Virus record (IMG/VR): IMGVR_UViG_3300029882_000073 | Location: 1-32,892 of that record | Reading direction: 5' to 3' (one strand) | DNA length: 32,892 nucleotides | Source: a virus | In this document: positions 2,466 through 22,938 of the stretch, one piece after another | Numbering within the stretch: position 1 is the stretch's first letter | Layout of the letters: every line of letters begins with the position of its first letter | Notes under the pieces: generated by a model | The model's database searches: none | Told to the model about the DNA's origin: nothing | The model's input: only the letters and a program-made list of their open reading frames with translations | Program-made: the position numbers and the translations under genes

Positions 2466-2573
2466 ACTAAACTGATCCAGCGCGGAACGTAGGATGAAGG
2501 CAGACCATCTCTGGATGGAACAATCTGTTGGACTACACGGGGACCGGCGGCAACGCTTCTCACCGAACGATAG

Positions 2574-2824: not shown

Positions 2825-2852
2825 TGCGAGGTTGATTTTAAGGACCAACTCA

Positions 2853-3062
2853 GTGGCTACAGGAAAAGTTAAATTCTTCTCGGACGCAAAGGGCTTCGGC
2901 TTCATCGCTCCGGATGATGGCGGCGACGAAGTGTTCGTCCATAGGACCGCACTGGTTCGGTCCCTCAACGTTCTGCTCCCCGACCAGGCCGTCCGGTACG
3001 AACTCGTATCTGCCGAGAAGGGCAACGGCTTCAAAGCTGCAGACGTATCCTTGGTGGCCTGA
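2853..3062 (+). CDS. csp: Cold-shock domain protein (CspA family)
   Basis: A 69-residue single cold-shock domain. The RNA-binding motif RNP1 is present as KGFGFI (about residues 14-19) and RNP2 as VFVH (about 29-32), and the start VATGKVKFFSDAKGFGF matches the family closely. I chose GTG at 2853 because it gives the usual family length and follows AAGGA at 2840-2844. A TTG at 2832 would add seven residues. Family members bind single-stranded RNA or DNA in the cytoplasm and melt RNA structure. The stop shares one base with the next ATG (TGATG), so it is coupled to the terminase genes. Such genes are known in phages but are uncommon directly before terminase. Confidence 0.93.
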   Translation: MATGKVKFFSDAKGFGFIAPDDGGDEVFVHRTALVRSLNVLLPDQAVRYELVSAEKGNGFKAADVSLVA

Positions 3063-3676
3063 TGGTCGCCAAACTAACCACCGCGGAGAAGAACCGTCGG
3101 AGACGCTCGGTCGCCAAGGTCGGCCCGAAGAAAGTCGGTCGGCCCAAAAAAGAAGTGAAGCTTCCATCCCTCGAGCGCATGGCGATGATGCAATGCACGA
3201 ACCAGGAGATGGCCGCAATCCTGGGCATGTCGGCGCGCACCTTCGGTCTGAAGATCAAGGAAGATCCGGTCTTCGCCGAAACGATCGAGCGTGGCCGAGA
3301 GATCGGCAAGGTCAACCTTCGGATGCTGCAGCAGCGGCACGCGGAAGGTGAGGGCGGCCCCGCTGTCAATATGACAATGCACCTGTCGAAGCACGTCCTC
3401 GGTCAATTCGACAAGCCGGTCGACACTCATTCAACCGTGGACGTGAAAATTGAACTCATCAGTGCAGGCGAACGAATCTCCGCCAAGTTCGACGAAATCG
3501 AACGACGACTCGCTGGGCCCGTTGCTGGGGAAGAAGGACTCCCCGTCATCGACGGGACCTTCTCCGTCGTCGACCCCGGCGCCGCCTTCGCTGAAATCAA
3601 AGCTGACAGCCAACTCGTCGAAGGGCGAGATAATGGCGACCTGGCCGAAGGAAGTCCGGGAGGACTACCTAGCTAA
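3062..3676 (+). CDS. terS: Terminase small subunit-like protein
   Basis: A 204-residue protein directly upstream of the large terminase gene, which it overlaps by 44 bases. After a basic N-terminal tail (residues 10-32, with RRRR and GRPKK), residues 43-75 form a homeodomain-like helix-turn-helix (CTNQEMAAILGMSARTFGLK), the usual DNA-recognition module of small terminases. A helical segment containing ERGREIGKVNLRMLQQ follows and could support oligomerisation. The C-terminal third is Asp, Glu and Ser-rich and probably disordered. Known family members bind the pac or cos site as a ring and hand the DNA to the large subunit. The assignment rests on the helix-turn-helix plus position. Confidence 0.85.
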   Translation: MVAKLTTAEKNRRRRSVAKVGPKKVGRPKKEVKLPSLERMAMMQCTNQEMAAILGMSARTFGLKIKEDPVFAETIERGREIGKVNLRMLQQRHAEGEGGPAVNMTMHLSKHVLGQFDKPVDTHSTVDVKIELISAGERISAKFDEIERRLAGPVAGEEGLPVIDGTFSVVDPGAAFAEIKADSQLVEGRDNGDLAEGSPGGLPS

Positions 3677-9612: not shown

Positions 9613-9867
9613 ATGCACGTCTACGCCACCGGCGCCAAAGCCGTGAAGCAAAAATCATTCATCATGAGCATCTGTCCGGCCAAGCACCTCGAGGGCCAGG
9701 GTGAGATGCCATCCGATTGGGTGGACGATAAGAACGCGCCCCTGGAATTCAACGTCGAGTTCGTCTTCGGCAAAGCGGATGTCCCCGACTCCATCGGGAA
9801 GTATCTCGTGAAACATCAGTTGGCGAAGAAGTCCCGGCTGATCTTGCCCGAGCTTCTGACCGCATAA
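9613..9867 (+). CDS. Small virion-region protein, unknown
   Basis: An 84-residue protein with a clear ACAGGAGTTTCC ribosome-binding sequence, placed right after the capsid terminator. It begins MHVYATGAKAVKQKSFIMSI and has a mixed alpha/beta composition with acidic centre (DWVDDKNAPLEFNVEFVFGK) and basic C-terminus. Genes in this slot often encode head or neck accessory proteins. I do not recognise this family, and the role is inferred only from position. Confidence 0.8.
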   Translation: MHVYATGAKAVKQKSFIMSICPAKHLEGQGEMPSDWVDDKNAPLEFNVEFVFGKADVPDSIGKYLVKHQLAKKSRLILPELLTA

Positions 9868-9876
9868 GGAATCCAC

Positions 9877-10281
9877 ATGCCTCAGGTCTCATCCGAAATA
9901 AATGATCAATACTGGGAGCCGGTCGCCACAGGCCCGGTAGCGCAGTGCGATCTGAGTGTCTCGGCAACTACTCCGCCGCCCACGACGATCGCTGCTGCCG
10001 GTAGCTACGTGTCGAACGTTATCGCGAGTGACGGCTTCAAGGCACTCTCTTGTGCTGTTCTGTCATCGCAGGCCGGTGCAGTTTCGATCCAGCGTTACGT
10101 CGATAAGGTTGGTACGCTTCCCCAGGGCGCGCCCATCTCTTCCACGCTCGTCGCCGCCACCGCGAACGTTGTGAACTCAAACGATGGACTCCCGTTCCAG
10201 TCGTTCAAGGTCACCATCACCAACACCGGCGGGTCCACTGCAACCATCTCTGGATTTGCGCTTCTTCTGAACGCGGCGTGA
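9877..10281 (+). CDS. Beta-rich structural protein, unknown
   Basis: A 134-residue protein with TAAGGAATCCAC before its ATG, the same ribosome-binding style as several neighbours. It is rich in Ser, Thr, Val and Ala and contains no charged helices. The N-terminus is MPQVSSEINDQYWEPVATG and the C-terminus has TVTITNTGGSTATISGFALL, a strand-turn-strand pattern typical of Ig-like or decoration folds. It lies between the capsid gene and the connector, suggesting a capsid-decoration or head-completion role. Not assigned to a family. Confidence 0.8.
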   Translation: MPQVSSEINDQYWEPVATGPVAQCDLSVSATTPPPTTIAAAGSYVSNVIASDGFKALSCAVLSSQAGAVSIQRYVDKVGTLPQGAPISSTLVAATANVVNSNDGLPFQSFKVTITNTGGSTATISGFALLLNAA

Positions 10282-10282
10282 T

Positions 10283-11188
10283 ATGGGATCGAATTATCTA
10301 CAGGGTGTCAACGACGGCTTCGGCCTTCCTGCCACTCTGCCGGCCGGAGTCGCTCAACTCGCATCGACCCTAATCGATGCCGAGATCAAGCGACCGGAAG
10401 GTCTGATCTATACCAAGGACGGCAACGGCAATCCTTGCGCCATGGCATCCATGACGCCGAGCTTCACATACAAGCTTGGATCAGCCATCACACCTGGCAC
10501 CAATGTCGTCGTGACAGTGACTCCGGCAAATATCAGAGCCGACAGCATCGGTGAAGTCCTTGTCCTCGACTTCGCTAACCCGGCCGCCGTAGAAGCTTGC
10601 GTCATCGTAGCTGTCAACGGAACCAATCAGATCACGCTCGGCAATGTTCAGTTCAGCCACGCCAGTGGCGCCCTGGCCGACGTCGGTCGTGTCATCAGCG
10701 AAGATCGCACCACGCCAAGTAAGCGTTCAATCGTTCGCGTGGCCAAGTTTCCGCTCGTAAGCGTCGTCTCGATGCTTGGCCGGTACTCCTACGGGCGCCG
10801 GTCTGATCAGGTCGGCGGTCTCTATCAGGACATGAACCTGTTGGCGTCGATCCAGTCCTTCGGCGGTCCGCCGCCGTGGATACCGATCGCGATCCCGCCG
10901 TCATCCTGGTCGGATGCGACCGGTGAGATCTGGGTGCCGGCTGGTGAACTGCTCTCCTATTACTCCGACGTTCGCATCAAGTACGTCGCAGGATATCCGA
11001 CCGTACCTGATCCGGTGGCACGCGCAGCCGCACAGATAGCATCAGGTCTAATCCAGACATCAAATCTAAGCGGCGGTCTTCAGAGGATCACAGCCGGCGA
11101 CACCACGATGATGCGGTTCGCGGCAACGACTCTCGACAACGACGTCAAGAAGTTGCTGGACCCGTTCCGCGCGCGGACCACATTCTAA
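10283..11188 (+). CDS. Head-tail connector-like protein
   Basis: A 301-residue protein starting one base after the previous stop. The C-terminal half has features of the gp6-like connector proteins: SYYSDVRIKYVAGYPTVPDP followed by helices (ARAAAQIASGLIQTSNLSGG) and a final segment ending in LLDPFRARTTF. The N-terminal 150 residues are beta-rich with Pro/Gly turns, an extension longer than usual for the family. Such proteins bind below the portal ring and link it to the tail. Assignment is by motif and gene order, so it is fairly secure for the C-terminal part only. Confidence 0.7.
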   Translation: MGSNYLQGVNDGFGLPATLPAGVAQLASTLIDAEIKRPEGLIYTKDGNGNPCAMASMTPSFTYKLGSAITPGTNVVVTVTPANIRADSIGEVLVLDFANPAAVEACVIVAVNGTNQITLGNVQFSHASGALADVGRVISEDRTTPSKRSIVRVAKFPLVSVVSMLGRYSYGRRSDQVGGLYQDMNLLASIQSFGGPPPWIPIAIPPSSWSDATGEIWVPAGELLSYYSDVRIKYVAGYPTVPDPVARAAAQIASGLIQTSNLSGGLQRITAGDTTMMRFAATTLDNDVKKLLDPFRARTTF

Positions 11189-11218
11189 TCCAATCCCCAA
11201 CATCAAGGAATTTCTCTC

Positions 11219-11443
11219 ATGGGCGTCAAGGCAAACCTCACTGCTATCACCTTCACGACTGGCGGCAAGAACCAGGCTGAAATCGCTGCGTGCGATCTCC
11301 CTGGCATCATGCTCGAGGTCGAACTCGCGATTGCTGAGTGCATCACCAAGCTCACCTATCTTGTCAACGATGTGCTGACGCCGTCGGGCACCGAGTCTTC
11401 GAACATCACCACGGTCAACACCGCCATCTCCGCGCTGTCGTAA
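11219..11443 (+). CDS. Small helical protein, paralogue-like to the gene at 6664
   Basis: A 74-residue protein beginning MGVKANLTAITFTTGGKNQA. It aligns with the product of 6664-6885: NLTAI against DLNAI, a shared Lys ten residues later, ACD against AID, IAE against VAE, and PSG..SSN against SSG..SAN. Identity is low but the register and length agree. The central helix (IMLEVELAIAECITKLTYLV) is hydrophobic. It opens the block of fibre-like genes and lies nine bases before the next gene. The two copies could be adaptor proteins for similar virion parts, which is inference. Confidence 0.75.
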   Translation: MGVKANLTAITFTTGGKNQAEIAACDLPGIMLEVELAIAECITKLTYLVNDVLTPSGTESSNITTVNTAISALS

Positions 11444-11452
11444 GGAATCGAA

Positions 11453-12340
11453 ATGACCGGCCTCACGAACTATTCGGCAGACAATCTGCTGAACAACATC
11501 ACGGGACAGATTGCGCAGCCGGTCACGCCGTCTGTGTTCATGGCGCTGTTCACGGCGGTCGGTACTGACGCCGGCACCGGCTTCACCGAAGTCTCGACGT
11601 CCGGTACCGCGTATGCTCGTACGCAGGTTGCCGGCTCCGTTGCGGCTACTGCGTCGTTCACGACCGGCTCGGCGAACGTCACCATGACGACCAACCCTGG
11701 CTGGGTTGTGCCTGGCATGACCGTCTACGATACGACCAACTCGCAGGCGATCGGCACTGTCTCGACGTACGTCGGAACCGCGCTGGTCCTCACGGCCAAC
11801 GCTCTGCATGCGTCTTCCGGCTCGACCGACAGCTTGACGTTCTCGGCGTTCCCGAATGCCAGCGGCACTGCACCGTCGTCCACGACCAATGGCGCTGCTG
11901 TAGCGTACGCGGCTGCCACGGGCGCCGGCTTCGGTACGGTCATCGCTTGGGGTCTCTACGACGCTCTGACCGCGGGCGATCTTCTGGCTTGGGATTTCCT
12001 GGGCAACTTCCCCTGGTTGCCGTTCGAGGTTCCGACCGCGAGCAACCTAGTGTCCGTCAAGGCCAACGGGTTTGCCAGCAACGATCCGATCGTGTTCACA
12101 GCGGAGTACGGCGGGACTCTTCCGACGCTCTCCACGGGCACCTGGACGGGCTACACCGTGAACTTCGTTGCCACGCCCGCGACCGACGCCATCAACGTCG
12201 ACACCACTACGGGCCCGGCGACCGCTTGCGTCACAACCAGCTCCGGCTCTGGCATGCTGCGAAAGATCGTGCAGCAGTCGATCCCGGCTGGCGTAACGCC
12301 GTCGTTCGCGTCCGGCACTATCGTCATCAGCGCAGCGTAA
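11453..12340 (+). CDS. Virion structural or fibre-associated protein
   Basis: A 295-residue protein. Its start (MTGLTNYSADNLLNNI) and the pieces SVFMALFTAVGTDAGTGFTE, GTAYARTQVAG and IAWGLYDALTAGDLLAWDFL match a module I recall as common in phage fibre-region proteins, in which a short helix precedes a beta-sandwich ending with a 'G.YDA..GG.LL' motif. The module is split by about 65 inserted residues (SFTTGSANVTMTTNPGWVV onwards) that look like an extra beta domain. The C-terminal 75 residues are Thr-rich and end in ASGTIVISAA. It probably lies on the virion surface. Exact role unknown. Confidence 0.7.
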   Translation: MTGLTNYSADNLLNNITGQIAQPVTPSVFMALFTAVGTDAGTGFTEVSTSGTAYARTQVAGSVAATASFTTGSANVTMTTNPGWVVPGMTVYDTTNSQAIGTVSTYVGTALVLTANALHASSGSTDSLTFSAFPNASGTAPSSTTNGAAVAYAAATGAGFGTVIAWGLYDALTAGDLLAWDFLGNFPWLPFEVPTASNLVSVKANGFASNDPIVFTAEYGGTLPTLSTGTWTGYTVNFVATPATDAINVDTTTGPATACVTTSSGSGMLRKIVQQSIPAGVTPSFASGTIVISAA

Positions 12341-12346
12341 TAGCGG

Positions 12347-14116
12347 ATGGCCAACAACTGGTACGTAGGGTCCGTCGACTACGGCAACGTTGCGGCGTTC
12401 ACAGTTTCGCACGCCTACACGGTCGGCAATCTTATTCGCCAGTTGGCCACCCCCACTGTCGGCAACGAGCGAGTCTTTCGTTGCACGACGGCGGGTACGT
12501 CTGCAGGTACTGAACCGACGTGGAATCTAACCGCGGGCAGCACGACCACGTCTGGCGGCGCCACTTTCACCGAGGTGACCGGTCAACAGACCTTTCAGTC
12601 CCCCGGCGCGTGGGCAGCTCCTCACAAGCTGATCAACAACGCGATGCAGTCCGGATGGGCTGCCGAGGGCGACACGATTTACGTCGCCAAGAACCACGCG
12701 GAGTCGTCAGCCAACCAGATCAAGTTCCAGATGTCCGGCAGCAATTGGTTGCTGAACCAGGTCATCTGCGTCGACAACACAGGCACTGGCGATGTGCCGC
12801 CGCTCGCGAAAGACTGGTTTCCCCAGCCGGGCACGCAGAACACCAACCTCGGCGCCTCGGTCACAATGACTGCGTCCGGCAACAATGCCATCGCGTTCAA
12901 CGACCCCAGCAACAACGTCCAGATGTACTGGTGGGGGATCTCGTTCATCTCGGCCCACCAGATGCAGTCCAGCTCCAACGGCATGGAGCTGTACGACAAC
13001 TGTTATTTCGGGATGCTGGCCGGTTCCGATGCCAACAAGATGGGCGGTCCATTCTCGTATTCCCACACCTGGAATAACTGCACGTTCAGCTTCGGCGACA
13101 CCACCTGCCACAACAGCTTTGGCGGAGGCATCGGCAGAGTCATCAATGCGCAGATGGCGTCGGGCACGTCGTTCCCGAGCCGGTTCTGGAACAACCCGGC
13201 AGCGGGTGAGTTTCACCTGATCGACTCGGACCTCTCGGGCTGGGGCTCGAACTACATCATCAACCAGTCGGGCGGAGCCGGATCGCAGTACCTAGAGAAT
13301 TGCAAGCTGGCCTCGAACGCCATTCCCTTCAGTGTGGCGGGTGATGACGGCAAGCAGGGCCCGCTGGTCTCGTCCTATCTCATTCGGTGCTCGTCGGCCA
13401 ACGATGACAACGTGCACGGCGTCACCCGCGCCGCGGGCAACCTGCTGTCCTCCCGCACACTAGTTCGCACCGGCGGTGCCGCTGATGACACTGGTGCCTT
13501 TGGACACACCGTCAATACGTTCGCCAACCCGAACAACAGCCAGGTCACGTCATTCTATTTTCCGTTCGAGTGCTTTCCTCTTGCGTCGTGGAACAACAAG
13601 ACCACCTCGGCGCTGAACGTGACGTTGTATGGCGTCTCTGGCGCCTCGGCGATGCCGACGAACGCTTCCGTGTGGATGAACGTCACCTATCCAGGATCGT
13701 CTGCGGCACCCCTTGGCAGTGTCATGTCCACGCGCACTGCGATCTCCGCGACGACGGGTACGGCGCTCACGGCCGACACCAGCGCATGGGATAGCAAAGC
13801 GCCGCAGCGCGCCAACTCGACGGCCGTCACCCTCGGCCAGGTCATGGCAGTGTCGACCAACTCCGGCCGACTTTTCATCTGTACGACTGCCGGCACCACT
13901 GCATCTTCGGTTCCTGGTGGTTATGCCAGTGCCGTCGACGGCGGCTCGGTAACGGATGGAACGGCAGTATTCCAGGCGATGTGGCGCTTCAAGATTACGG
14001 CGTCACTGACATCGCCGCAACAGGCGCTTGCCGGTCCAGTCGAAGTGCAACCCTTCGTGCAGACCGGGTCAACCTCCGTGACGACGCTCTTTGATCCTTC
14101 ACCCACACTAAGTTAG
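12347..14116 (+). CDS. Fibre-like protein with two copies of a receptor-type module
   Basis: A 589-residue, Asn/Ser/Thr/Gly-rich protein of beta character. A module with RVFRCTTAGTSAGTEPTWN (about residues 17-78) recurs in diverged form as RLFICTTAGTTASSVPGGYA (about 475-548). This type of short module, with an 'R.C.TAG.S...EP.W' pattern, is frequent in fibres and surface-binding enzymes. The middle (residues 120-420) resembles a right-handed beta-helix, with alternating short strands and many Asn and Gly turns. No catalytic motif is evident. It lies in the block between connector and tail-completion genes, so attachment to head or neck is possible. Confidence 0.7.
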   Translation: MANNWYVGSVDYGNVAAFTVSHAYTVGNLIRQLATPTVGNERVFRCTTAGTSAGTEPTWNLTAGSTTTSGGATFTEVTGQQTFQSPGAWAAPHKLINNAMQSGWAAEGDTIYVAKNHAESSANQIKFQMSGSNWLLNQVICVDNTGTGDVPPLAKDWFPQPGTQNTNLGASVTMTASGNNAIAFNDPSNNVQMYWWGISFISAHQMQSSSNGMELYDNCYFGMLAGSDANKMGGPFSYSHTWNNCTFSFGDTTCHNSFGGGIGRVINAQMASGTSFPSRFWNNPAAGEFHLIDSDLSGWGSNYIINQSGGAGSQYLENCKLASNAIPFSVAGDDGKQGPLVSSYLIRCSSANDDNVHGVTRAAGNLLSSRTLVRTGGAADDTGAFGHTVNTFANPNNSQVTSFYFPFECFPLASWNNKTTSALNVTLYGVSGASAMPTNASVWMNVTYPGSSAAPLGSVMSTRTAISATTGTALTADTSAWDSKAPQRANSTAVTLGQVMAVSTNSGRLFICTTAGTTASSVPGGYASAVDGGSVTDGTAVFQAMWRFKITASLTSPQQALAGPVEVQPFVQTGSTSVTTLFDPSPTLS

Positions 14117-14123
14117 GCCCGCG

Positions 14124-14561
14124 ATGGCGATCTACGTCTACAACAGCACCACGGGCGCTCTTTCTTCGTGGTGCCCTGACGATACCGACCCGGTGGCGTC
14201 CAGCGATGTTCTGGCCGCCAACGGGCTCGTGTCGGTTTCTGGGTTGCCGGCACTCGGACCCACCGTTGGGTGGAATGCCGCGACCAAGACCACGGCAACA
14301 GTGACGGCACCTATTGCTCCGCAGCCGATCCTGACGAGCATGTGGATCATGCGGTTCACTGCGGCGGAGTTTCAGGCCATCAATGCGTCGACCGACCCGA
14401 CGGTGCAGCAGTTCATGTACGCGCTGAACCACACTCAACAGGTCGACTTGACGAATGCACAGATGATCGATGGCGCCAACTATATCGCCTCGATCAATTT
14501 GATCCAGTCAGCTCGACTCACCGCAATCATGGCCGTTCCCGCCAGCATCGATGGACCATAA
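14124..14561 (+). CDS. Small protein associated with fibre genes
   Basis: A 145-residue protein. The N-terminal half is beta-rich (MAIYVYNSTTGALSSWCPDD), the C-terminal half helical with MWIMRFTAAEFQAINASTDP, VQQFMYALNHTQQVDL and LIQSARLTAIMA. The helical part resembles small proteins often found next to phage fibre genes, with an 'F...E......S.D..V..F...L' pattern. It may be a fibre accessory or chaperone. It follows the large fibre-like gene by seven bases and precedes the next by two. The ribosome-binding sequence is weak, so translation may be coupled. Confidence 0.7.
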   Translation: MAIYVYNSTTGALSSWCPDDTDPVASSDVLAANGLVSVSGLPALGPTVGWNAATKTTATVTAPIAPQPILTSMWIMRFTAAEFQAINASTDPTVQQFMYALNHTQQVDLTNAQMIDGANYIASINLIQSARLTAIMAVPASIDGP

Positions 14562-14563
14562 AA

Positions 14564-15397
14564 ATGCCGGGCGGTTTTTCTCTCCATAACGACATTTGCA
14601 ACGGCCAGAACGTCGGCTCTGTTCTGACCACGTCGTTCGGTACCGTGGTTACCTCCAGCGCCACCGCCAACACCAAGGGCGCCTACACGCAATTGATTGC
14701 GGCGACAGCATCTGACGCCGCTTTCATGGAGGTCAGGATTTACGTCCAGAACTCTAACAGCCCAAACTTTGCGATCGACATCGCCGTCGGTGCGTCGGGG
14801 TCGGAAGTAGTTTTAGTTCCCAATCTTGTAACGCAAACGATCTTTGCTGGTTACAACTTGGTAGTCTGGGCGTTTCCAATTTCAATTCCGGCAGGCACGC
14901 GCATCGCCGCTCGCATGCAGGACAGCAGCGGTTCACAGACCGCCACTGTCTCCCTTAACCTGTTCGATGCTGGGTTCACCATGCCAGACGGATATTCTGG
15001 CGTCGATGCAATCGGCTTCACTGCTACCAGCACTGAAGGAACTTCACTCACCCCGAGCACGACCGTCGACACGATGGGCGCATACTCGCAACTGATCGCT
15101 GCCACCACGCGGGATTACGTTGGTATCTTCGGGGCTTTTGATTCCCAGCAGGGCAACAGCAAGGTTCAGTCCTACTTGGTCGATGTGGCCATCGGTGCGT
15201 CCGGCAGCGAGCAAATCATTATCCCTAAATTGTTCAACTATAACAGCGATAGCAACAACTGGATGTTCCAGTTTCCGTTTCATCCCATCCAGATCCCTGC
15301 CGGAACGCGCATCGCGGCGCGCTGCCAGACAAACGCAACTAGCGGATCGGGCAACCAGCGACCAATCGATCTGACACTGTATGGAGTCTACCTATGA
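14564..15397 (+). CDS. Fibre-like protein made of two duplicated domains
   Basis: A 277-residue protein. Residues 20-137 and 154-277 are clearly copies of one beta-rich domain: each has GAY(T/S)QLIAAT (39-48 and 172-181), V(A/D).A(V/I)GASGSE (near 75 and 209) and IPAGTRIAAR (108-117 and 244-253). I use the ATG at 14564, three bases after the previous stop, because the open frame further upstream is shadow of the neighbouring gene. The last base quartet ATGA overlaps the next gene. The 'IPAGTRIAAR' edge resembles sequences in capsid-decoration and fibre proteins. Probable role in virion surface binding, by inference. Confidence 0.75.
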   Translation: MPGGFSLHNDICNGQNVGSVLTTSFGTVVTSSATANTKGAYTQLIAATASDAAFMEVRIYVQNSNSPNFAIDIAVGASGSEVVLVPNLVTQTIFAGYNLVVWAFPISIPAGTRIAARMQDSSGSQTATVSLNLFDAGFTMPDGYSGVDAIGFTATSTEGTSLTPSTTVDTMGAYSQLIAATTRDYVGIFGAFDSQQGNSKVQSYLVDVAIGASGSEQIIIPKLFNYNSDSNNWMFQFPFHPIQIPAGTRIAARCQTNATSGSGNQRPIDLTLYGVYL

Positions 15398-15723
15398 CAT
15401 GGACACTCAGTGATTCAGGTACGACGTCGGCCTTGACGGTCGGCACCGAGACGGCGCTGGCCACTGACACTAACAACGGCACCTTCGTGCTTGAGGTTGA
15501 TACCAGCAATCTCGCGCTTGGCGACCTGCTCGAAGTCCGTGTCTACACCATCGCATTGAGCGGCGGCACCTTAACCCAGGCGTGGAAGGGTACTTACCAG
15601 CACGCCCAGATCAACAACCACAAGATCGCGCCTCCGGTCGCCAGCGACCAGAGCATCAAATGCACATTGAAGCAGGTGGCAGGTACCGGCCGAACCTTCG
15701 CTTGGAAGATGCTGAGAATTTAA
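15394..15723 (+). CDS. Small conserved-type beta protein of fibre block
   Basis: A 109-residue beta-rich protein beginning MTWTLSDSGTTSALTVGTET. It contains TFVLEVDTSNLALGDLLEVR, a WKGTYQHAQ motif and a C-terminus ending AGTGRTFAWKMLRI. I recall similar small proteins adjoining fibre genes in phages, but have no firm family name. Its ATG overlaps the preceding stop by four bases, so production is coupled to the duplicated-domain protein. A trimeric or Ig-like decoration subunit is possible. Confidence 0.75.
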   Translation: MTWTLSDSGTTSALTVGTETALATDTNNGTFVLEVDTSNLALGDLLEVRVYTIALSGGTLTQAWKGTYQHAQINNHKIAPPVASDQSIKCTLKQVAGTGRTFAWKMLRI

Positions 15724-15724
15724 T

Positions 15725-16915
15725 GTGCATCAGTATTATGGTTTACCCGCAGAACTCCCCGCCGCCACTGTAGCGTCGGCGACCACGCGCAGCTACGTCA
15801 TTCGCGGCGCGACGCCGCGGATCGTGACGGAGACAGGCTCGCGCACCTATGCCTCCGGATGGTCAGTTCTTACTGAGACAGAGACGGTCGTCAGTGGTGG
15901 AACGGTAGCGCTCGCCGGCCGATCCTTACTGATGCTGATCGGCAAAGCGCAGATCGCGGGACTGACCAGCCTGTCCGGTGCTACCAAGGCGAAAGTCAAA
16001 GGCAGTGCCGTCCTAACCGCTAAGGTGTTGATGGCGGCGCGCACGGCTGTAGCGGTCAAGGGCATAGCCCTATCTCATGGTGTCGTGTCGCTGGCTGGTC
16101 GCATCTCTTCTGCGATACATTCTACCGCAAACTATGGCGGACCGTCTGTCATTGCCCTTCTCGGCGCGATGGGCATCAAGATTCGTGCATCCGCTTCGCC
16201 TGTATCAAAAACTTCTCTCGCTGGATACTCAAAGGTTGCCAGCACAGGAAAATCATCCGCGTCGCTCAAGACTGGTCTCAGCGGGTCTACGACCTCGGTC
16301 ATCAAGACGCTGTCGGCTATGTCTGCTCACGTCGGACTATCTGGCGCGAGCCGGGCAGCCATCATGGCTCGGATCGTTCCACCAGGTGCTGTTGCGCTAA
16401 TCGGTCGCGCATTCGTTGCGGTTATGGCTCGAGCATTACCCAAGGCTACCGTTCCGCTCCAGGGGACGCTGACGTTGTCAGTGCAGGCCAAATCCAATCC
16501 ATCCTTCACTCAGAAGCTCTCCGGAGCCATGAAGGTGGCCCTGGCCTCGGGCGCCGGTATTATTTCTTCGGTACACCTATCAGGTGCAACGAAGATCAGA
16601 ACCATAAGCTCTTCGAGCATGTCTCGGATAGCTGGTCTGTTCGGATCCTCCACGATCGCAGTTCGATCTGTCTCTTCGGTAACAGCCAACGTCGCGCTCA
16701 GCGGCGTGTCTCGAGTCGTCACGTCGGGGCAGGGACTGATCGGCAGAGTCGTCTTCGTCGTCGCACTGACGGGGTCGACGAGCTTCGGGTTCATGTCGAG
16801 CGCAGCCCTCCAGGTGTTCGCACGATCGTCCCGTATCGCCGCAGCTCTCCTCGATTTCAGGAGCGCATCAGTCGCGGCAGAGAACAGGACTGCAGTAGCT
16901 CCCCCAAACAATTAG
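15725..16915 (+). CDS. Repeat protein built of fifteen 20-residue LxG units
   Basis: A 396-residue protein dominated by a 20-residue repeat. The Gly of an L-x-G motif falls at residues 65, 85, (105, degenerate), 125, 147, 167, 187, 207, 227, 247, 267, 287, 307, 327 and 350, so spacing is exactly 20 apart from slips of 22 and 23. The unit reads roughly V-x-L-S-G-A followed by a Lys/Arg or Ser-rich strand and a variable turn, with almost no acidic residues or aromatics. This looks like a beta-solenoid or fibre shaft. The start is uncertain: GTG at 15725 is used, since no in-frame ATG precedes the repeats, and it lies two bases after the previous stop. Residues 1-60 are a non-repeated head. Confidence 0.75.
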   Translation: MHQYYGLPAELPAATVASATTRSYVIRGATPRIVTETGSRTYASGWSVLTETETVVSGGTVALAGRSLLMLIGKAQIAGLTSLSGATKAKVKGSAVLTAKVLMAARTAVAVKGIALSHGVVSLAGRISSAIHSTANYGGPSVIALLGAMGIKIRASASPVSKTSLAGYSKVASTGKSSASLKTGLSGSTTSVIKTLSAMSAHVGLSGASRAAIMARIVPPGAVALIGRAFVAVMARALPKATVPLQGTLTLSVQAKSNPSFTQKLSGAMKVALASGAGIISSVHLSGATKIRTISSSSMSRIAGLFGSSTIAVRSVSSVTANVALSGVSRVVTSGQGLIGRVVFVVALTGSTSFGFMSSAALQVFARSSRIAAALLDFRSASVAAENRTAVAPPNN

Positions 16916-16923
16916 GATGATCT

Positions 16924-17202
16924 ATGTCGTTGCTGTGGCCGCCTAAAGATCCGGCGGAGACGCTGGACTATGATCTCGATTGGACCGCGCGTCTCGCTGG
17001 CGACACCATCGTGTCATCCGCTTGGACCATCCCAACCGGCTCAAATCTGTCCATCGTTTCCAACTCGTTCATCGCGTCTATCACCAAGGTATGGCTAACC
17101 GCCGGACTTCTTGGTCAGGTCTATACGCTTTCCAACGAGATCACCACGGCGGCCGGCGACACCATGATCGAAAGCGTGCAGATCCTTCTGCAGGCCAAGT
17201 AA
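16924..17202 (+). CDS. Fibre-tail adaptor-like Ig protein
   Basis: A 92-residue protein starting MSLLWPPKDPAETLDYDLDW, then WTARLAGDTIVSSAWTIPTG and a C-terminal beta pattern (VYTLSNEITTAAGDTMIESV). This is a compact Ig-like domain of the type I recall from small phage 'fibre-tail adaptor' proteins, whose shared pattern is D.DE.LDY..DW...L...D.I..S.W. It follows the repeat protein by eight bases and precedes the neck gene by a TAATG overlap. The placement fits an adaptor linking the fibre block to the neck. Confidence 0.75.
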   Translation: MSLLWPPKDPAETLDYDLDWTARLAGDTIVSSAWTIPTGSNLSIVSNSFIASITKVWLTAGLLGQVYTLSNEITTAAGDTMIESVQILLQAK

Positions 17203-17591
17203 TGGTGAACCTTCTTTATCCTCGGACGGTGGAGGTTCACCGTTTCAGATCAGTGGCCGGACCTGCAGACACTGCTATCGGTGGTCTCGGATATTCCGGT
17301 GCAGAGCAATCAACCAACCCCAGCGATGCCCAGGGCGAAATAGTCCTATTCACGGGGATCGCTGCGTCAATTCAGTCAGGCGACACCGGACGTAAGAAAG
17401 GCAAAGCCCTTCCTTCCGACGTCTTCTACGCGCCGACCTGGTACATCTTCATTCCTCCTACCGAGATCGCACAATACTCGATCAAGGATCGAGACATCAT
17501 CTTGGATGAAGAGGGATATCGATATGAGGTCGGGCAAAACTATTGGAGCATGGCCGGCTACAAGCTGAGCTGCATCCGGTTGGAGGCATAA
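17202..17591 (+). CDS. Head-closure or neck protein, tentative
   Basis: A 129-residue protein (ATG at 17202, sharing one base with the previous stop). It begins MVNLLYPRTVEVHRFRSVAG and has the beta-rich body VFYAPTWYIFIPPTEIAQYS followed by DRDIILDEEGYRYEVGQNYW, a pattern similar to small head-closure proteins (Stopper type) that are single beta-barrels with 'V..R.......G....I...D.....G..Y.V'. It lies directly before the tail terminator-like gene, as head-closure genes usually do. The assignment is by context and fold impression only. Confidence 0.65.
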   Translation: MVNLLYPRTVEVHRFRSVAGPADTAIGGLGYSGAEQSTNPSDAQGEIVLFTGIAASIQSGDTGRKKGKALPSDVFYAPTWYIFIPPTEIAQYSIKDRDIILDEEGYRYEVGQNYWSMAGYKLSCIRLEA

Positions 17592-17592
17592 C

Positions 17593-18471
17593 GTGGCGGA
17601 CATTTCGGACGTCACTGCGTATCTCCAAGCCACGGCAACTGCCGCAGTCTATCCAGATGGGATATCTGTTCCATCCGTCGCGGCTATGGACTGCAGGATC
17701 TACGAAGGATGGCCTGACGCGGCGCAGCTCGATCTCGATCTCGCCGGGAAGATGTTGTCCTTGTCAACTGGTCTTCCGGGCACTCGTCCAGGCGGTCCCG
17801 TAGCCAACGTGTCCATCTTCCCAATGATGGGCACTGGCATCGCCGTCTACCAAATCCTCGACGAGACATACGTGGTCACTCCGGTGAACTACGGAATGAG
17901 TCTATCCACCAACGGCAACACTCTTACCGTAACTGGACAGCCTAACGCGCAAGAATACCTGACGTTGGTCTGTGATGATCAATTCGCCTATTCGGCTAAT
18001 GGAGCGAGCACCGCAGCAATCTTGGCGACTCTCGCCAGCGCAGCGCAAGCAAACTATCCGAGTGCATCTTCAACTTCTAACACCATCACCATTCCAACCA
18101 CGCACGCATTCATCGTGCGCCAAGGCGGATACGGCGTTCTTGGCAAAGTGACTCATCGCCAACGTCATCCCGTGATGGTGAGTGTATGGGCGCCAACGCA
18201 AGCGGTGCGCTCGACTCTATCAAAGGCGATCGATGTCGCCATCAAGAACAGTAACAAAGTCACGATGCCTGATGGATCTCAGGCTCTCGTTATCTACAGC
18301 CGCACCAACATTTCTGATGACCAATCGTCTGCGACTGTCTACCGGCGCGACCTGATCTACATGGTCGAATATGCCACCGTCGAAACATTCCCCGGCGCCG
18401 TCATCACGACCGTTAATAACCCAATCACCGCGCAGGGCATCGGCAGCGCGATAGCCACAGCTTTAACATAA
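17593..18471 (+). CDS. Tail terminator or completion protein, tentative
   Basis: A 292-residue protein with a GTG start at 17593, one base after the previous stop; no nearer ATG gives a reasonable length. The C-terminal half has RQRHPVMVSVWAPTQAVRST, KVTMPDGSQALVIYSRTN and YRRDLIYMVEYATVE, a pattern typical of proteins that cap the tail tube in myoviruses. Residues about 95-185 look like an inserted beta-rich region with many Asn/Thr. Position just before the sheath gene supports a terminator role (hexameric ring at the head end of the tail). The family is not firmly named here. Confidence 0.75.
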   Translation: MADISDVTAYLQATATAAVYPDGISVPSVAAMDCRIYEGWPDAAQLDLDLAGKMLSLSTGLPGTRPGGPVANVSIFPMMGTGIAVYQILDETYVVTPVNYGMSLSTNGNTLTVTGQPNAQEYLTLVCDDQFAYSANGASTAAILATLASAAQANYPSASSTSNTITIPTTHAFIVRQGGYGVLGKVTHRQRHPVMVSVWAPTQAVRSTLSKAIDVAIKNSNKVTMPDGSQALVIYSRTNISDDQSSATVYRRDLIYMVEYATVETFPGAVITTVNNPITAQGIGSAIATALT

Positions 18472-18481
18472 GGCACATCAC

Positions 18482-18613
18482 ATGAACTACTTCCTCATTT
18501 GCGTTCATCCTTTCGGAAAGTACGAGAAGGGCACGATGATCACCGACGCTGCTGAAGTGGCGACGCTTCTGCTCGATCGCGAGCATCACTTCGTTCGGAT
18601 CACCTCCTTCTAA
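18482..18613 (+). CDS. 43-residue small protein, unknown
   Basis: A tiny gene with ATAAGGCACATCAC before its ATG and TAA at 18611-18613. The product (MNYFLICVHPFGKYEKGTMI ... DREHHFVRITSF) has a strand-turn-acidic helix-strand pattern. I recall similar short proteins with a 'F..Y..G..I.D...V..LL..EH...V' pattern encoded beside phage sheath genes. The frame is clean and codon use matches the neighbours. It sits between the tail terminator-like gene and the sheath terminator. No function assigned. Confidence 0.7.
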   Translation: MNYFLICVHPFGKYEKGTMITDAAEVATLLLDREHHFVRITSF

Positions 18614-18641
18614 TCCAGTTCCACTAATCAACCCTTTCCAG

Positions 18642-18667
18642 ACCCGCCCTTCGAGGCGGGTTTTTTT
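18642..18667 (+). terminator. Rho-independent terminator upstream of the sheath gene
   Basis: ACCCGCC (18642-18648) pairs with GGCGGGT (18655-18661) around CTTCGA, followed by seven T (18661-18667). The sheath gene's ribosome-binding GGAG starts just four bases after the T-run, so a transcript reading through carries a hairpin directly ahead of the sheath start. Confidence 0.92.
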
Positions 18668-18680
18668 ATTGGAGACGTAA

Positions 18681-20975
18681 ATGCCTGTATTTCTCGACGG
18701 CCAGCAAAATCTTGCGGCCCTAACCGTCCCCGGCGTTTACGGAGACATTATACTTCCGACTCCGTTGCTGCTCGGCCAGCCCACGAATATCGAAGGTCTG
18801 GTCGGCGTCGGTAGCTGGGGCCCGCTGAATGCTCTGATCCCGATGAGTAAGCCGCAGGATGCTGCGCTGAACATCGGGCCGCCCGTCATCCGTCCGTACG
18901 ACATCTCGTCCTATTTGTCGGCAGCCAGCCAGGTCGGCGGGGCGATCGGCTTCCTGGGCGTTCGCGTCTCGGACGGCACGGATACCGCTGCGTTCTCGCA
19001 GATCCAGTCCGGCGCTGCCTTCGCGGTTGGTTCTGCGGCCTTCACGACCAATCCATCCGTCAACGACACCCTGACGATCAACGGAAGCATTGTCACGTTC
19101 GTTGCTTCCGGTGCGTCGGCTCTCCAGGTCAACATCGGCAACAACCTTGCCTTGACCCTTCAGAACCTGATCACGATGCTGCAGGCATCTGCCGACAGCC
19201 AGTTGGTGAAGTTCGCCTACGCGCTGCAGGGCTTCGTACTGAACCTGGTGGCCGTGACCTCGGGCACCGCCGGCAACGCACTGACGCTCGCCAAGTCTTC
19301 GACCTCGATCACGCTGTCTGGCGCCACGCTGACCGGCGGCTCCGCTGGCGGCGCTGCTTGTATGACGATCTCTGGCAAGTACAGCGGCGTCCTCGGCAAC
19401 AAGATCCAGTTCTCGATCCAGAACGGCACGATGGCCAACACCTATATGGCTGTCGTCGTATTCCCCGGCATGGTTCCGGAGCAGTTCAACAACATTGCAG
19501 CCGCAACTCCCGCGACCGCCACCGTCTCCTTCACCGGGAACCCGGCGAACTCCGACACCGTGACGATCGCCGGCACCGTCGTCACCTTCGTGACCGCGAC
19601 TCCGACGGGCAATCAGGTGCAGATCGGTGCGACCCAGGCAATCACGATCGCTAACCTGATCTCGTTCTTGTCGGCTTCGACCGACTCCAACCTGATCAAG
19701 GTCAACCAGTCGGTGCAGGGAAGCATCGTTACGTTGACCGCCAACATCAACCAGGTGGTTGGCGCGGCCGGCAACTCGCTGACCCTCGCCAAGTCATCGA
19801 CGACCTTGGTGATTTCCGGTGCAGCCTTCACGGGCGGCGTCGGCACTGGCAACACCTTCTGGACCAACCTGACCAACGCGATCAACAACGGCACGCCGTA
19901 TCACGGTCCGTCCGCCTATGTGATCGCATCGGTAGGAACCGGTGTCGCAATCCCGACGCTGTCGTCTCCGCTGGTTCTCTCTGGAGGTACGGATGGCGCT
20001 GCCGGCGTCACCGATGCCACCTTGATGGGTCAGGACATCGTGCCTCGCAAGGGCATGTATGCTCTCCGCAATTCGAACTGCGACGGCTTCACTCTCTGCG
20101 ATCTCTCGACCATCGCGGACTATGCGGCGATCGTATCCTTCGGCTTGAGCGAGACGATGCTTCCGGTGTTCGCTTCGCCGTCAGGTGACACGATCCAGAA
20201 CTGTCTCAATACCCGCATCAATGCCGGCGTCGACAGCCCGTGGTTCTGGTTCATCCTCGGCGACTATCCGTCGTGGTACGACAGCTACAACGGTCAGACG
20301 CGACTGATCAATTCCTCGGCCATTGGTCTCGGGATCATCGGTAATCTGTCCCCGCAGGAGTCCCCGCTGAACAAGCCGCTGCAGGGCATCTCCTCGACGC
20401 AGCGTGCGACGCTTGGTCAGACTTACAGCGACACTGAGCTGTCTCTGATCAACACAGGCGGCATCGATACGATCCTGTCGCCGAACTCTTCACCCGGTGG
20501 CTATTACTACTCGTTCGCTACCGGCCGCAACGCCAGCTCGAACACCGCGGCGAACGGTATCGAGTACACCCGCATGACGAACTTCCTGATCCGTACTTCT
20601 CAGTCGAAGGCGGCAGGGTCATTCGTCGGTCAGTTGCAGTCGATCCAGCCGAACGATCAGACTCGCTCCAATGCCAAGTCCCTGTTCGACGGGCTGTCGG
20701 CACAGCTTGCATCTTCGCAGGTTGGTATCGGCATCAACGGCCAAGGCATCATCGACAAGCCGTGGGTGGTCCAGTGCGATCTCAATAACAACCCGCCGAG
20801 CCTGCAGGCTCTCGGTTACCTGTTCCTCTATTGGCAGGTTCGCTACCTGAACGTCATCCGATACTTCGTGGTGAAATTCCAGGGCGGCGGCAATGTCACC
20901 GTAACCGTTCAGAGCACGCAGCCGACGCCGTCGCAGTTCGCGGCCACGGCGAACACGGCTACCGCAACCTCGTAA
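18681..20975 (+). CDS. Tail sheath protein with two inserted repeat domains
   Basis: A 764-residue protein, the contractile sheath by its N-terminus (MPVFLDGQQNLAALTVPGVY), the central region and the conserved C-terminal lattice domain near residues 640-740 (SLQALGYLFLYWQVRYLNVI). Two copies of one domain interrupt it: residues 113-220 (FTTNPSVNDTLTINGSIVTF ... TLSGATLTGG) and 277-386 (FTGNPANSDTVTIAGTVVTF ... VISGAAFTGG). That repeated domain, with 'V.INGT.VTFV' and 'AGNALTLAKSST', occurs in many phage structural proteins and probably sits on the outer surface of the sheath. The core drives tail contraction. It is flanked by terminators on both sides. Confidence 0.95.
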   Translation: MPVFLDGQQNLAALTVPGVYGDIILPTPLLLGQPTNIEGLVGVGSWGPLNALIPMSKPQDAALNIGPPVIRPYDISSYLSAASQVGGAIGFLGVRVSDGTDTAAFSQIQSGAAFAVGSAAFTTNPSVNDTLTINGSIVTFVASGASALQVNIGNNLALTLQNLITMLQASADSQLVKFAYALQGFVLNLVAVTSGTAGNALTLAKSSTSITLSGATLTGGSAGGAACMTISGKYSGVLGNKIQFSIQNGTMANTYMAVVVFPGMVPEQFNNIAAATPATATVSFTGNPANSDTVTIAGTVVTFVTATPTGNQVQIGATQAITIANLISFLSASTDSNLIKVNQSVQGSIVTLTANINQVVGAAGNSLTLAKSSTTLVISGAAFTGGVGTGNTFWTNLTNAINNGTPYHGPSAYVIASVGTGVAIPTLSSPLVLSGGTDGAAGVTDATLMGQDIVPRKGMYALRNSNCDGFTLCDLSTIADYAAIVSFGLSETMLPVFASPSGDTIQNCLNTRINAGVDSPWFWFILGDYPSWYDSYNGQTRLINSSAIGLGIIGNLSPQESPLNKPLQGISSTQRATLGQTYSDTELSLINTGGIDTILSPNSSPGGYYYSFATGRNASSNTAANGIEYTRMTNFLIRTSQSKAAGSFVGQLQSIQPNDQTRSNAKSLFDGLSAQLASSQVGIGINGQGIIDKPWVVQCDLNNNPPSLQALGYLFLYWQVRYLNVIRYFVVKFQGGGNVTVTVQSTQPTPSQFAATANTATATS

Positions 20976-21000
20976 TCCTTCACCCCAATCAGCCTTTCAG

Positions 21001-21027
21001 AGCCCGCCCTAACACGGCGGGCTTTTT
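21001..21027 (+). terminator. Rho-independent terminator between sheath and tube genes
   Basis: AGCCCGCC (21001-21008) pairs with GGCGGGCT (21016-21023) around CTAACAC, followed by five T. The tube gene's GGAG ribosome-binding sequence begins five bases later. The whole region is a near-duplicate of the terminator region before the sheath gene. Confidence 0.92.
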
Positions 21028-21043
21028 CTTTGGAGATGCCTAA

Positions 21044-21481
21044 ATGCCCGTCAATGGAATGAACGTAGGCGTCGATTATTCGATCACCTACTACGACTCG
21101 AACTCGGGGAGTCTGATTACTCTCGGTGACGTTCAAGACGTCAAGATCACCGCGCTCAAGCACGACATCAAATCTTCGCCGTACAATCAGTTGCCTCGGT
21201 TCGGCTACGTTCCCGACGGCTACAAGATCGACTTCACCATCACGCGCAACGGATCTGTGCTCGAAGATCTGATGGTGACGTTCAGTACGAACTTCAACGC
21301 CGGCAACGTCATGGCGCCTGGCTACCTGAACGAAACGATCAACAACCCCGACGGCACCGTCAGCCGATATCAGTACACCAACCTCGTGGTGTTTCTGAAC
21401 AGCCACGGCGACATCAGCCGCGACAAGGTTGTCAGCCTCTCGCTCGAGGCTATGGCGTCGGATAAGGTAACGATTGCGTAA
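21044..21481 (+). CDS. Tail tube protein
   Basis: A 145-residue protein immediately after the sheath gene, the standard order for myoviruses. It begins MPVNGMNVGVDYSITYYDSN and is mainly beta, with KHDIKSSPYNQLPRFGYVPD, DLMVTFSTNF and a C-terminal hydrophobic strand (KVVSLSLEAMASDKVTIA), as in tube proteins that stack as hexameric rings under the sheath. TTTGGAGATGCCTAA provides the ribosome-binding site. Its stop TAA shares one base with the next ATG. Good agreement of size and position with the family. Confidence 0.92.
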   Translation: MPVNGMNVGVDYSITYYDSNSGSLITLGDVQDVKITALKHDIKSSPYNQLPRFGYVPDGYKIDFTITRNGSVLEDLMVTFSTNFNAGNVMAPGYLNETINNPDGTVSRYQYTNLVVFLNSHGDISRDKVVSLSLEAMASDKVTIA

Positions 21482-22281
21482 TGCAAATCGGAGTCATCAC
21501 CTGTAGCGGAATGAAGGTCGGCGTCATTACCATGGATCGTGGTGACGACGTCGACCAGTTCACTCCAGATCTCGATGGCTACACGCCGGAAGGTAGAGCA
21601 GGGCAGGGCGAGAGCAGTCACCTCGGTGGTCATCACGGTGGTGGAGTTCATCATCCGGATCCAACTCCGGAAGATCACAAGCACAACAGCATTCGATACG
21701 GTCATCATCACGCGCCCGGCAAAGAGTACGCACCGTCGAGCGGTCCAAGCTCTACGTTCCGTCAAGGGACTGCAGAGACCGACCAGGCGATCGTTGATGC
21801 TTCCAAGGCTCACAACCTTGACGTCAACACCATGCGCGGGATTGCCTCGATCGAGAGTTCGATGAACCCGTCGAGCAACGCCAATCGCTCGACCCAGTAC
21901 AAGGGTCTCTACCAGGTCGGTCACAATGAATGGGATCGGTTCGGAGATGGCGGTAACATCTACTCGGCGCACGACAACGCGATGGGTGCTGCTCGGATGT
22001 TCGATGCTAACCGCGCGCAGTTCAAATCTCATTTCGGTAGAGATCCGACCGACACCGAACTGTACATGATGCACCAGCAGGGTCTGGGTTTCTATACCAA
22101 TCACGCCATGACGAATATCTCAGGCAATCCGTATCCTGGGATGCACGGTCAACAGACGCATGAGAGCTTTGAGGCGGGTTGGGGCAGAGAGCTTGCGCGG
22201 CGCAAGGCTGGCTTCGCGGCTAGAGATAATGCGAGCCCGACGGCGGCAACGGCGTTTGATCCGGCGACGATGGCGCCGTAG
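21481..22281 (+). CDS. Virion lytic transglycosylase with His-rich N-terminus
   Basis: A 266-residue protein. The C-terminal domain carries transglycosylase hallmarks: GIASIESSMNPSSNA (catalytic Glu125), KGLYQVGHNEWDRFG (the GLYQ motif, 142-155), SAHDNAMGAARMFDAN and LYMMHQQGLGFYTN. Such enzymes cut peptidoglycan as the tail penetrates the cell wall. Residues 47-77 hold ten His residues (LGGHHGGGVHH, HKHN, YGHHH), probably metal-binding or flexible. The first 18 residues contain a small duplication (M-x-(I/V)-GVIT). The ATG overlaps the previous stop (TAATG). The 3' end overlaps an antisense gene by 62 bases. Confidence 0.9.
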   Translation: MQIGVITCSGMKVGVITMDRGDDVDQFTPDLDGYTPEGRAGQGESSHLGGHHGGGVHHPDPTPEDHKHNSIRYGHHHAPGKEYAPSSGPSSTFRQGTAETDQAIVDASKAHNLDVNTMRGIASIESSMNPSSNANRSTQYKGLYQVGHNEWDRFGDGGNIYSAHDNAMGAARMFDANRAQFKSHFGRDPTDTELYMMHQQGLGFYTNHAMTNISGNPYPGMHGQQTHESFEAGWGRELARRKAGFAARDNASPTAATAFDPATMAP

Positions 22282-22537
22282 GGAATTTGCGCGGGAATAA
22301 CCCGAGCAGAACTGTCCTCATCACCAGCCAATAGACGAAGAAGCCGAGCAGGAATTCGAGCCATCGCTCGCTCCAATTCCACCACGGCTGCTCAACAAAA
22401 TACATCCAGACGCACCAGAAAACAACGGCAGTGGCAACGCACACGACGCGCCCCGCCGAGGATATGCGCTCCCACAACTTCAACTTCCGCGTGACGAAGC
22501 TTCCGTCTCCAGCCGGGGTGCTCACCGTTACTGCCAT
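22220..22537 (-). CDS. Antisense two-helix membrane protein, possible moron
   Basis: The only convincing minus-strand gene in the window, 105 residues long. Its start (ATG read from 22537) is preceded on the minus strand by ACGGAGGAACTGAAAA, a strong ribosome-binding sequence. The product has a basic N-terminus, a first membrane helix at about residues 30-48 (VVCVATAVVFWCVWMYFV), a Trp-rich turn (EQPWWNWSERW) and a second helix at about 60-80 (LEFLLGFFVYWLVM...), then a Pro-rich tail. It overlaps the 3' end of the transglycosylase gene tail to tail. It may be a lysogenic-conversion or superinfection-exclusion type membrane protein or a holin. No motif decides. I see no clear promoter or terminator. 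Confidence 0.75.
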   Translation of the reverse strand: MAVTVSTPAGDGSFVTRKLKLWERISSAGRVVCVATAVVFWCVWMYFVEQPWWNWSERWLEFLLGFFVYWLVMRTVLLGLFPRKFPTAPSSPDQTPLPPSGSHYL

Positions 22538-22581
22538 TTTTCAGTTCCTCCGTTCACTCACCCGTACAGCATAGGACCGTC

Positions 22582-22938
22582 ATGACCAAAGCGAATTCTA
22601 CCGAGACTGCAACCGAAACGCTAACAAAAATGCTTGACACGGCATCAGCCACTGATTCTCGAGGGCGGTTGATTACGGTTAACAGGCTCAACGCTTTGCA
22701 GTTTTATCGCTTGACCAAAGCTATGGGTGTGAACTCGAGCAACCCGGCCAGTATGGATCTCGCCGTCCTCGTTTCGTCGGTCAAGAAGATCGACGCGACC
22801 CACGTTGCCCCTCCTTCATCTGAGGCCGAGATCGAATTTCTGATCCAGCAACTAGACTTCGATGGCATCGCTGCCGTCGGTGAAGCACTCAAGAAACTAG
22901 GCGAACAAGACAGCTCGGTCGACGCATCAAAAAACTAA
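22582..22938 (+). CDS. Tail assembly chaperone, short form
   Basis: A 118-residue protein, mostly helical (LQFYRLTKAMG, AEIEFLIQQLDFDGIAAVGE, ALKKLGEQDSS), in the slot immediately before the tape measure module where gpG-like chaperones are found. It ends SVDASKN with a stop right after AAAAAAC, which is a -1 slippery site. In phages of this type the short form (gpG) and a longer frameshift form (gpGT) coat the tape measure while the tail assembles. No assignment from sequence alone beyond position, helicity and the frameshift signal. Confidence 0.85.
   Translation: MTKANSTETATETLTKMLDTASATDSRGRLITVNRLNALQFYRLTKAMGVNSSNPASMDLAVLVSSVKKIDATHVAPPSSEAEIEFLIQQLDFDGIAAVGEALKKLGEQDSSVDASKN

Follow-up and report, generated by a model that had tools for sequence, protein, structure and literature searches.

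What a chain of 20-residue repeats does for its phage is the question raised by the gene at positions 15725 to 16915. The window, by which we mean the whole stretch of DNA analyzed here, is a 32,892-base IMG/VR record that carries terminase, portal, head-tail connector, sheath, and Baseplate_J genes, and because a tail sheath gene is present, the phage is a myophage. The features on which the argument draws are as follows.

10283-11188, + strand: head-tail connector (phrog_442, E 4.5e-9)
11453-12340, + strand: gp80-type "fiber I" domain protein, 295 aa (Pfam PF23140, E 1.6e-11, 45.1 bits where the cut-off is 27)
12347-14116, + strand: cassette protein, 589 aa, with an N-terminal segment matching the "head decoration" PHROG phrog_20658 (E 8.4e-13)
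14124-14561, + strand: cassette protein, 145 aa (phrog_25252, E 7.7e-7)
14564-15397, + strand: cassette protein, 276 aa, with two similar halves as judged from reading the translation
15394-15723, + strand: cassette protein, 109 aa, matching no Pfam or PHROG family
15725-16915, + strand: repeat protein (candidate "rope"), GTG start, ORF of 396 aa
15905-16834, + strand: 20-residue LxG repeat region, residues 61 to 370 of the repeat protein
16832-16912, + strand: C-terminal tail RIAAALLDF/RSASVAAEN/RTAVAPPNN, of which residues 379 to 396 match a motif learned from other phages
16924-17202, + strand: gp77-type fiber-tail adaptor, 92 aa (Pfam PF23148, E 7e-24)
18681-20975, + strand: tail sheath (34% identity over 67% of the query to the annotated tail sheath of Komagataeibacter phage phiKX1)
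29660-30874: Baseplate_J, a context gene

The 20-residue repeat is real, and its register is kept. An N-terminal stretch (residues 1 to 60) is followed by about fifteen 20-residue LxG slots (residues 61 to 360) and by an Arg-containing C-terminal tail (residues 370 to 396). LxG glycines fall at residues 65, 73, 85, 125, 147, 167, 187, 207, 227, 247, 267, 287, 307, 327, 340, and 350, and 14 of these 16 belong to the series that the preliminary description had read from the translation, which was exact as given. The glycines at 73 and 340 are out of register, LxG is absent from slot 105, and the steps from 125 to 147 and from 327 to 350 measure 22 and 23 residues. The self-similarity check confirmed the periodicity as significant: BLOSUM62 autocorrelation gave z scores of 8.6 at lag 20, 6.9 at lag 40, and 5.6 at lag 60, whereas across 500 shuffles no lag between 3 and 79 gave a z above 4.1. 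Ten LxG pairs are spaced by exactly 20 residues, against a maximum of 2 in 5,000 shuffles, a figure that rises to 3 when the most favorable spacing between 10 and 40 is used. A motif model seeded at ten LxG sites placed 13 units. In a set of 13 units picked at LxG sites, V is the most frequent residue at position -4 (7 of 13, followed by T in 3) and V or I occupies position +4 in 7 and position +6 in 8. Because of that choice of sites, L and G are fixed by construction, and it is the regular spacing that constitutes independent evidence. Residues 22 to 42 (RSYVIRGATPRIVTETGSRTY, window 15788-15850) resemble a decayed version of the Arg tail, and a second tail copy at that place is unsupported, with a motif score of -0.9.

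Searches with the repeat protein itself led to identical copies and no other relatives. A Pfam search returned no model above cut-off, the sole hit being a subthreshold one to DUF1427 (E 0.026), and a PHROGs search gave no match at E 1 or better, PHROG 19041 included. No match was obtained among phage records, a PDB search produced a single chance match (E 0.68), and a search of viral contigs recovered five identical copies and nothing further. The gene is identical in DNA on these five other IMG/VR contigs, with 0 differences in 1,191 positions each, and thus the copies carry no information on selection.

The surrounding cassette was more telling. The repeat gene lies between the connector and sheath genes and directly before the gp77-type adaptor gene, which supports the original suggestion of a head- or neck-proximal fiber component. 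Gp77 and gp80 are the "fiber-tail adaptor" and "fiber I" of the Ralstonia podophage GP4, after which both Pfam families are named. The 16924-17202 product also matches PDB chain 8jou_D, at E 4.5e-6 alone and at E 2e-14 through a nine-sequence profile. The 11453-12340 product is detected by a local gp80 profile as well; that profile had been iterated over the same ORFs, this one among them, such that its E values overstate confidence, and the Pfam result for this product is independent of it. Between these two genes the repeat gene falls as in the GP4-type order. For the 589-aa cassette protein, position alone suggests a fiber role. The 276-aa product matched nothing above cut-off in Pfam or PHROGs and is possibly a fiber payload, maybe with a duplicated receptor-binding domain; BLAST self-comparison did not report its halves as similar.

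We note some further traits of the window. The sheath is 764 aa long, compared with 497 aa in phiKX1, and parts of its residues 125 to 386 match Rhodobacter phage proteins annotated as tail tubes, which suggests an inserted domain common with tail tubes. A lone tRNA-Met (CAT) gene lies at 2387-2460, before the terminase gene. Contig L006 is identical to the window over 9725-22912, and the ungapped match of contig L003 (IMGVR 3300030693_000034) ends at 21109, with 376 mismatches up to 21572, a difference that is either an insertion/deletion or an assembly difference.

Since the repeat protein had no matches beyond its identical copies, relatives were traced through gp77. Loci (given here by L numbers) were chosen by gp77 similarity and not by repeats, and they came from viral contigs (the best 80 of 580 confirmed in one scan) and 13 genome contigs; the first of the scans of genome collections confirmed no locus and the second confirmed these 13, and a plasmid scan gave three records, one of which was examined. 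Among the matches listed, 99 loci were analyzed, 10 of which lacked a directly upstream ORF of at least 100 aa, and the other 89 yielded 78 unique upstream ORFs, in which the wrong-frame automatic picks at L077, L087, and L144 were retained. The ORF directly upstream of gp77 was periodic (z above 5 at one or more lags between 8 and 59) in 51 of these 78 cases among the matches listed, most commonly at lag 22 (20 ORFs) or lag 20 (14 ORFs). Control ORFs of at least 200 aa from the same listed loci exceeded z 5 in 23 of 348 cases (25 of 433 in a separate count), and some of the periodic controls were themselves fiber genes or wrong-frame readings (e.g., L077, L087, L097, L111, and L154). The remaining 27 of the 78 listed upstream ORFs were aperiodic by this test, for example, those of L054, a Bradyrhizobium-type prophage, and L056. 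The preliminary description had suggested a shaft perhaps without known likeness, and on that point it needs revision: similarly placed proteins with 20- to 24-residue units and a like tail occur in many phages. In the literature searched we found no description of this class of repeat, tail, and gp77 genes, which does not prove that there is none.

Among the matches listed, 57 loci offered 4.9 kb or more of DNA before gp77, and 19 of these carry a gp80-like gene no farther than 7 kb upstream of the adaptor gene. In the other 38 no such gene was found upstream, although in one of them (L043) it lies just downstream. The raw count of 26 of 64 is biased, as seven shorter loci (L073, L079, L085, L095, L097, L163, and L168) had been admitted only on a gp80-like match already seen, and the gp80 locus set retains near-duplicates such as L077 and L092, from one assembly.

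The proteins upstream of gp77 are varied in size, domains, and units. Among the matches listed, the periodic ones range from 167 to 1,854 aa. Several have a large N-terminal domain, which begins alike in L039, L052, and L087 and is lacking in the window protein; in L039 it gave a BNR match below cut-off. Units are of the type GTFTLTGQ in L098, GSMDMTG in L091, and GVSATGSIG-like in L099 and L138, and since unit types differ between relatives, units appear to be exchanged or fast diverging. L075, L079, and L084 come closest to the window, with R-x-L-x-G every 20 residues in matching register, a gp80-like gene upstream, and gp77 downstream, yet the window protein aligns with those of L075 and L079 at only 19% identity. 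This register was read with a position-specific matrix of the window unit, which, with 8 shuffles per protein, serves for register and not for significance. Mixed alignments of the window protein with other 20-residue repeat proteins were gappy and out of register. L087 resembles the window protein in its units of about 20 to 22 residues (Y-x-L-T-G) and its Arg tail but differs in having the large N-terminal domain. In L039, the sheath of which is 69% identical to that of the window, the upstream protein has 1,056 aa and a weaker periodicity (z of about 4 at lag 32). The 1,854-aa protein of L052 (423-5987), upstream of gp77, carries two similar large domains that start like the L039 protein, each followed by 20-residue repeats. 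An ORF of L097 (3-1679) has 21-residue repeats (z 12) and ends in "GRGVQVAARRQA"-like units in place of the usual tail, and a gp80-like protein is encoded between it and gp77.

The C-terminal tail is the second trait held in common. A motif of two 9-residue "R..V.AE" units was trained on 54 tails from other phages, with the window protein excluded, the wrong-frame picks L077, L087, and L144 left out, and L039, L060, L073, L090, and L043 added to the periodic set. It scores 14.3 at residues 379 to 396, the extreme C terminus of the repeat protein, where the next best site scores 1.5 and none of 1,000 shuffles attains 14.3. Under leave-one-out scoring, among the matches listed, 20 of the 54 family tails reach at least 14.3, 34 at least 10, and 44 at least 7, compared with 1, 3, and 5 of 348 control ORF ends. 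The controls are topped by two ORFs of L044, which is Rhodococcus phage Shagrat; they lie at 1448 and 3038, two and three genes past gp77. These adjacent Shagrat genes (1448-4468) end in the Arg-tail motif with scores of 16.4 and 12.6, and in that phage the fiber genes may follow gp77 rather than precede it, the module being reversed. A simple count of Arg at a spacing of 8 to 11 was discarded as unspecific, for it was satisfied, among the matches listed, by 30 of 51 periodic and 13 of 27 other upstream ORFs and by 97 of 348 controls. Repeats, tail, and gp77 can also be one protein: in L111 (4807-6261) a single natural ORF of 484 aa comprises short repeats, an Arg tail, and a gp77 domain. PHROG 4137 also contains a gp77 match, at positions 257 to 344 of its 349-position profile. 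An apparent gp77 fusion in L074 was rejected, as its upstream part is a wrong-frame reading.

Nor is the window protein without a counterpart in known systems, for GP4-type podophages, in which fiber I and the adaptor are solved, have one in a like position. Their gene order is gp80, a repeat-type protein with an Arg tail, and gp77, with or without one extra gene between. In BcepIL02 these are gp55 (gp80 homolog), gp56 (repeat protein, annotated as virion associated, z 7.6 at lag 20), and gp57 (gp77 homolog), and in BcepMigl gp56-gp57-gp58-gp59 are arranged alike apart from an extra pectin-lyase-like gene, with z 3.5 at lag 20 for gp57. BcepIL02 gp56 and BcepMigl gp57 both belong to PHROG 19041, "virion structural protein." The gp77 of the 61-kb viral contig L163 agrees with the 8jou_D segment at every one of 84 residues; the contig also encodes a gp80 of 140 aa (the length of 8jou_a) and, between the two, proteins of 325 and 568 aa, which would be gp79 and gp78, counting from gp80 to gp77. 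The 325-aa protein (1303-2280 of L163) has z 5.0 at lag 10 and shares 36% identity with BcepMigl gp57 across 225 residues (E 1e-33). When the PDB was searched with BcepMigl gp57, no 8jou chain came up, and since such similarity should be detectable, the entry apparently does not include this protein as a deposited sequence. Further counterparts are found in Itty13 (z 3.1 at lag 10), PBC5 (orf12, z 4.6 at lag 20), and Atu_ph08 (z 3.5 at lag 40); among all GP4-type counterparts, only BcepIL02 gp56 exceeds z 5 at lag 20. The motif model placed 6 units in BcepMigl, 9 in BcepIL02, and 11 in L163, the last site in BcepMigl and L163 being probably false; one more site in L163 fits by eye only, giving about 10 to 11 units in the GP4-like protein. 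PDB entry 8jou contains 10 gp80 chains and 3 gp77 chains. The GP4 fiber reportedly comes in five chain-like copies set on a 15-fold adaptor, and in each copy an elongated rope protein is said to join five gp80 dimers; ten gp80 and three gp77 chains per fifth of the ring fit that architecture. From gene order, the gene between gp80 and gp77 in GP4 is a natural candidate for the rope.

How might the window protein work? We favor, with somewhat better than even confidence, the reading in which it is the rope of a neck fiber of the GP4 fiber I type, with repeats that dock gp80-type subunits and a tail that anchors in a gp77-type ring. The protein would be the connecting thread of a chain-like fiber. 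Each 20-residue unit would offer a docking strand to one subunit of the 11453-12340 product, the subunits being strung like beads, and the C-terminal Arg tail would tie the fiber to the neck by binding the adaptor ring, the product of the next gene. We infer both contacts, and the presence of the protein in the virion, from gene order and sequence. The tail-motif control on ORF ends acts in favor of the rope reading. Against it, the window protein has no sequence match to PHROG 19041, no gp80-like gene was found upstream in the 38 loci mentioned above, the protein between the gp80 and gp77 counterparts of phage JC1 is missing from a list of virion proteins considered below, and a rope of ten units would need far less length than many relatives have. 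The weak periodicity of most GP4-type counterparts and the biased gp80 count lower our confidence in it and in the ruler reading considered below.

The fold of the repeats bears on a different account, in which they form a rigid beta-solenoid or trimeric beta shaft, each unit a rung or segment, anchored to gp77 at the C terminus and independent of gp80. The alternating hydrophobic pattern within units is as expected of such a shaft, and the AlphaFold2 model of the 22-residue relative L138 (17 sequences) has strands throughout the repeats, a block of pLDDT 70 to 79 over residues 121 to 220, and, on realignment to Foldseek candidates, a resemblance to parallel beta-helices (1hg8, Z 15.8; 1rwr, Z 15.5). 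The mean pLDDT of that model is only 56, however, its best PDB match in Foldseek had an E value of 0.45, and the one strong viral match (E 7e-9) was to an uncharacterized phage protein at 25% identity. The window protein, predicted from its single sequence, came out as helices at pLDDT 36. The beta-solenoid in L138 is of low to moderate confidence, and repeat sequences may yield such folds as an artifact of monomer prediction. The authors of the siphophage LSH1 study suspect an artifact in a poor beta-helix prediction for the C-terminal part of gp34, the neighbor of which, gp35, matches a GP4 fiber chain (PMC13243795). A solenoid fold of the repeats is possible but unproven, and the independent beta shaft as a whole strikes us as rather unlikely.

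The low-confidence prediction for the window protein, together with the strong sequence divergence from unit to unit, would suit a flexible, largely disordered spacer in which the register records a history of duplication, the chain keeps length and solubility, and only the tail has a specific partner. A spacing of exactly 20 is nonetheless kept over ten successive units despite divergence elsewhere, a combination that neutral decay of duplicates does not predict, and we regard such a spacer as improbable. Less probable still is a fiber assembly factor absent from the mature virion. That idea draws on the GP4-type phage JC1, for which the virion mass-spectrometry list, in the excerpt available, includes gp53 (the gp80 counterpart by length and position) and gp55 (the gp77 homolog) and lacks gp54, which holds the equivalent position between them. 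It is at odds with the annotation of BcepIL02 gp56 as virion associated and with the fusion of repeats, tail, and gp77 in L111.

If the window protein is a rope, its repeats could also be a molecular ruler. One 20-residue strand would then serve each gp80-type subunit, and repeat number would set the bead count and the fiber length; the GP4 rope would be the protein between gp80 and gp77, and the same design of rope, bead, and ring, with repeat types and tip domains free to vary, would extend across podo-, sipho-, and myophages of many hosts. The sole numerical hint is the agreement between the 10 gp80 chains in 8jou and the 10 to 11 or so units in the GP4-like protein, and we consider the ruler doubtful. 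Were repeat number to set fiber length, phage neck fibers would offer a simple model for viral length measurement. More generally, the rope reading would assign partners and a likely function to many phage repeat proteins, a large class that mostly lacks annotation and is recognizable by a period of about 20 to 24 residues, an Arg-rich C-terminal tail, and an adjoining gp77 gene, and it proposes a candidate gene for the linking thread of GP4 fiber I.

Fibers that invite comparison have been described in other phages. The Anabaena myophage A-1(L), encoding gp82-gp81-gp80, has five bead-chain-like neck fibers on a 15-mer neck ring, and the likeness is one of description; both phages are myophages, but the A-1(L) fiber is there a head-to-tail series of gp81 trimers without a rope (PMC10966104). 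In the Alishewanella phage LSH1, a siphophage whereas that of the window is a myophage, the published report states that gp35 matches GP4 8JOU_g by HHpred, that the gp34 to gp36 genes travel together in LSH1-related genomes, and that in the working model gp36 on the virion attaches the gp35 fibril, with gp34 as payload (PMC13243795). As described there, the C-terminal region of gp34 is poorly modeled and perhaps repetitive, and by analogy the association of repeats, tail, and gp77 may suggest why part of gp34 models badly.

Nearer to the window are PHROG 19041 and GP4 itself. The members of PHROG 19041 (BcepIL02 gp56, BcepMigl gp57, and Itty13 QRE00591) occupy the same gene position, and BcepIL02 gp56 has the 20-residue periodicity and Arg-rich ends. 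Their units are G-x-A-x-M-x-L, in contrast to V-x-L-x-G in the window, their profile does not match the window protein, and periodicity is weak in BcepMigl and absent by autocorrelation in Itty13. The window differs from the GP4 fiber I module in belonging to a myophage, in its extra cassette genes, in a gp80-type protein of 295 aa as opposed to 140 aa, and in a repeat protein with no detectable sequence similarity to the GP4-type protein, such that it is position, unit length, and tail that link it to GP4-type ropes. In both, gp77 and gp80 homologs share one cassette after the head genes, and a repeat-type protein with an Arg-containing tail is encoded between them. By position and layout, the window protein would thus be the myophage counterpart of the GP4 rope, a putative virion component that brings a new repeat type to the fiber module of gp80, rope, and gp77.
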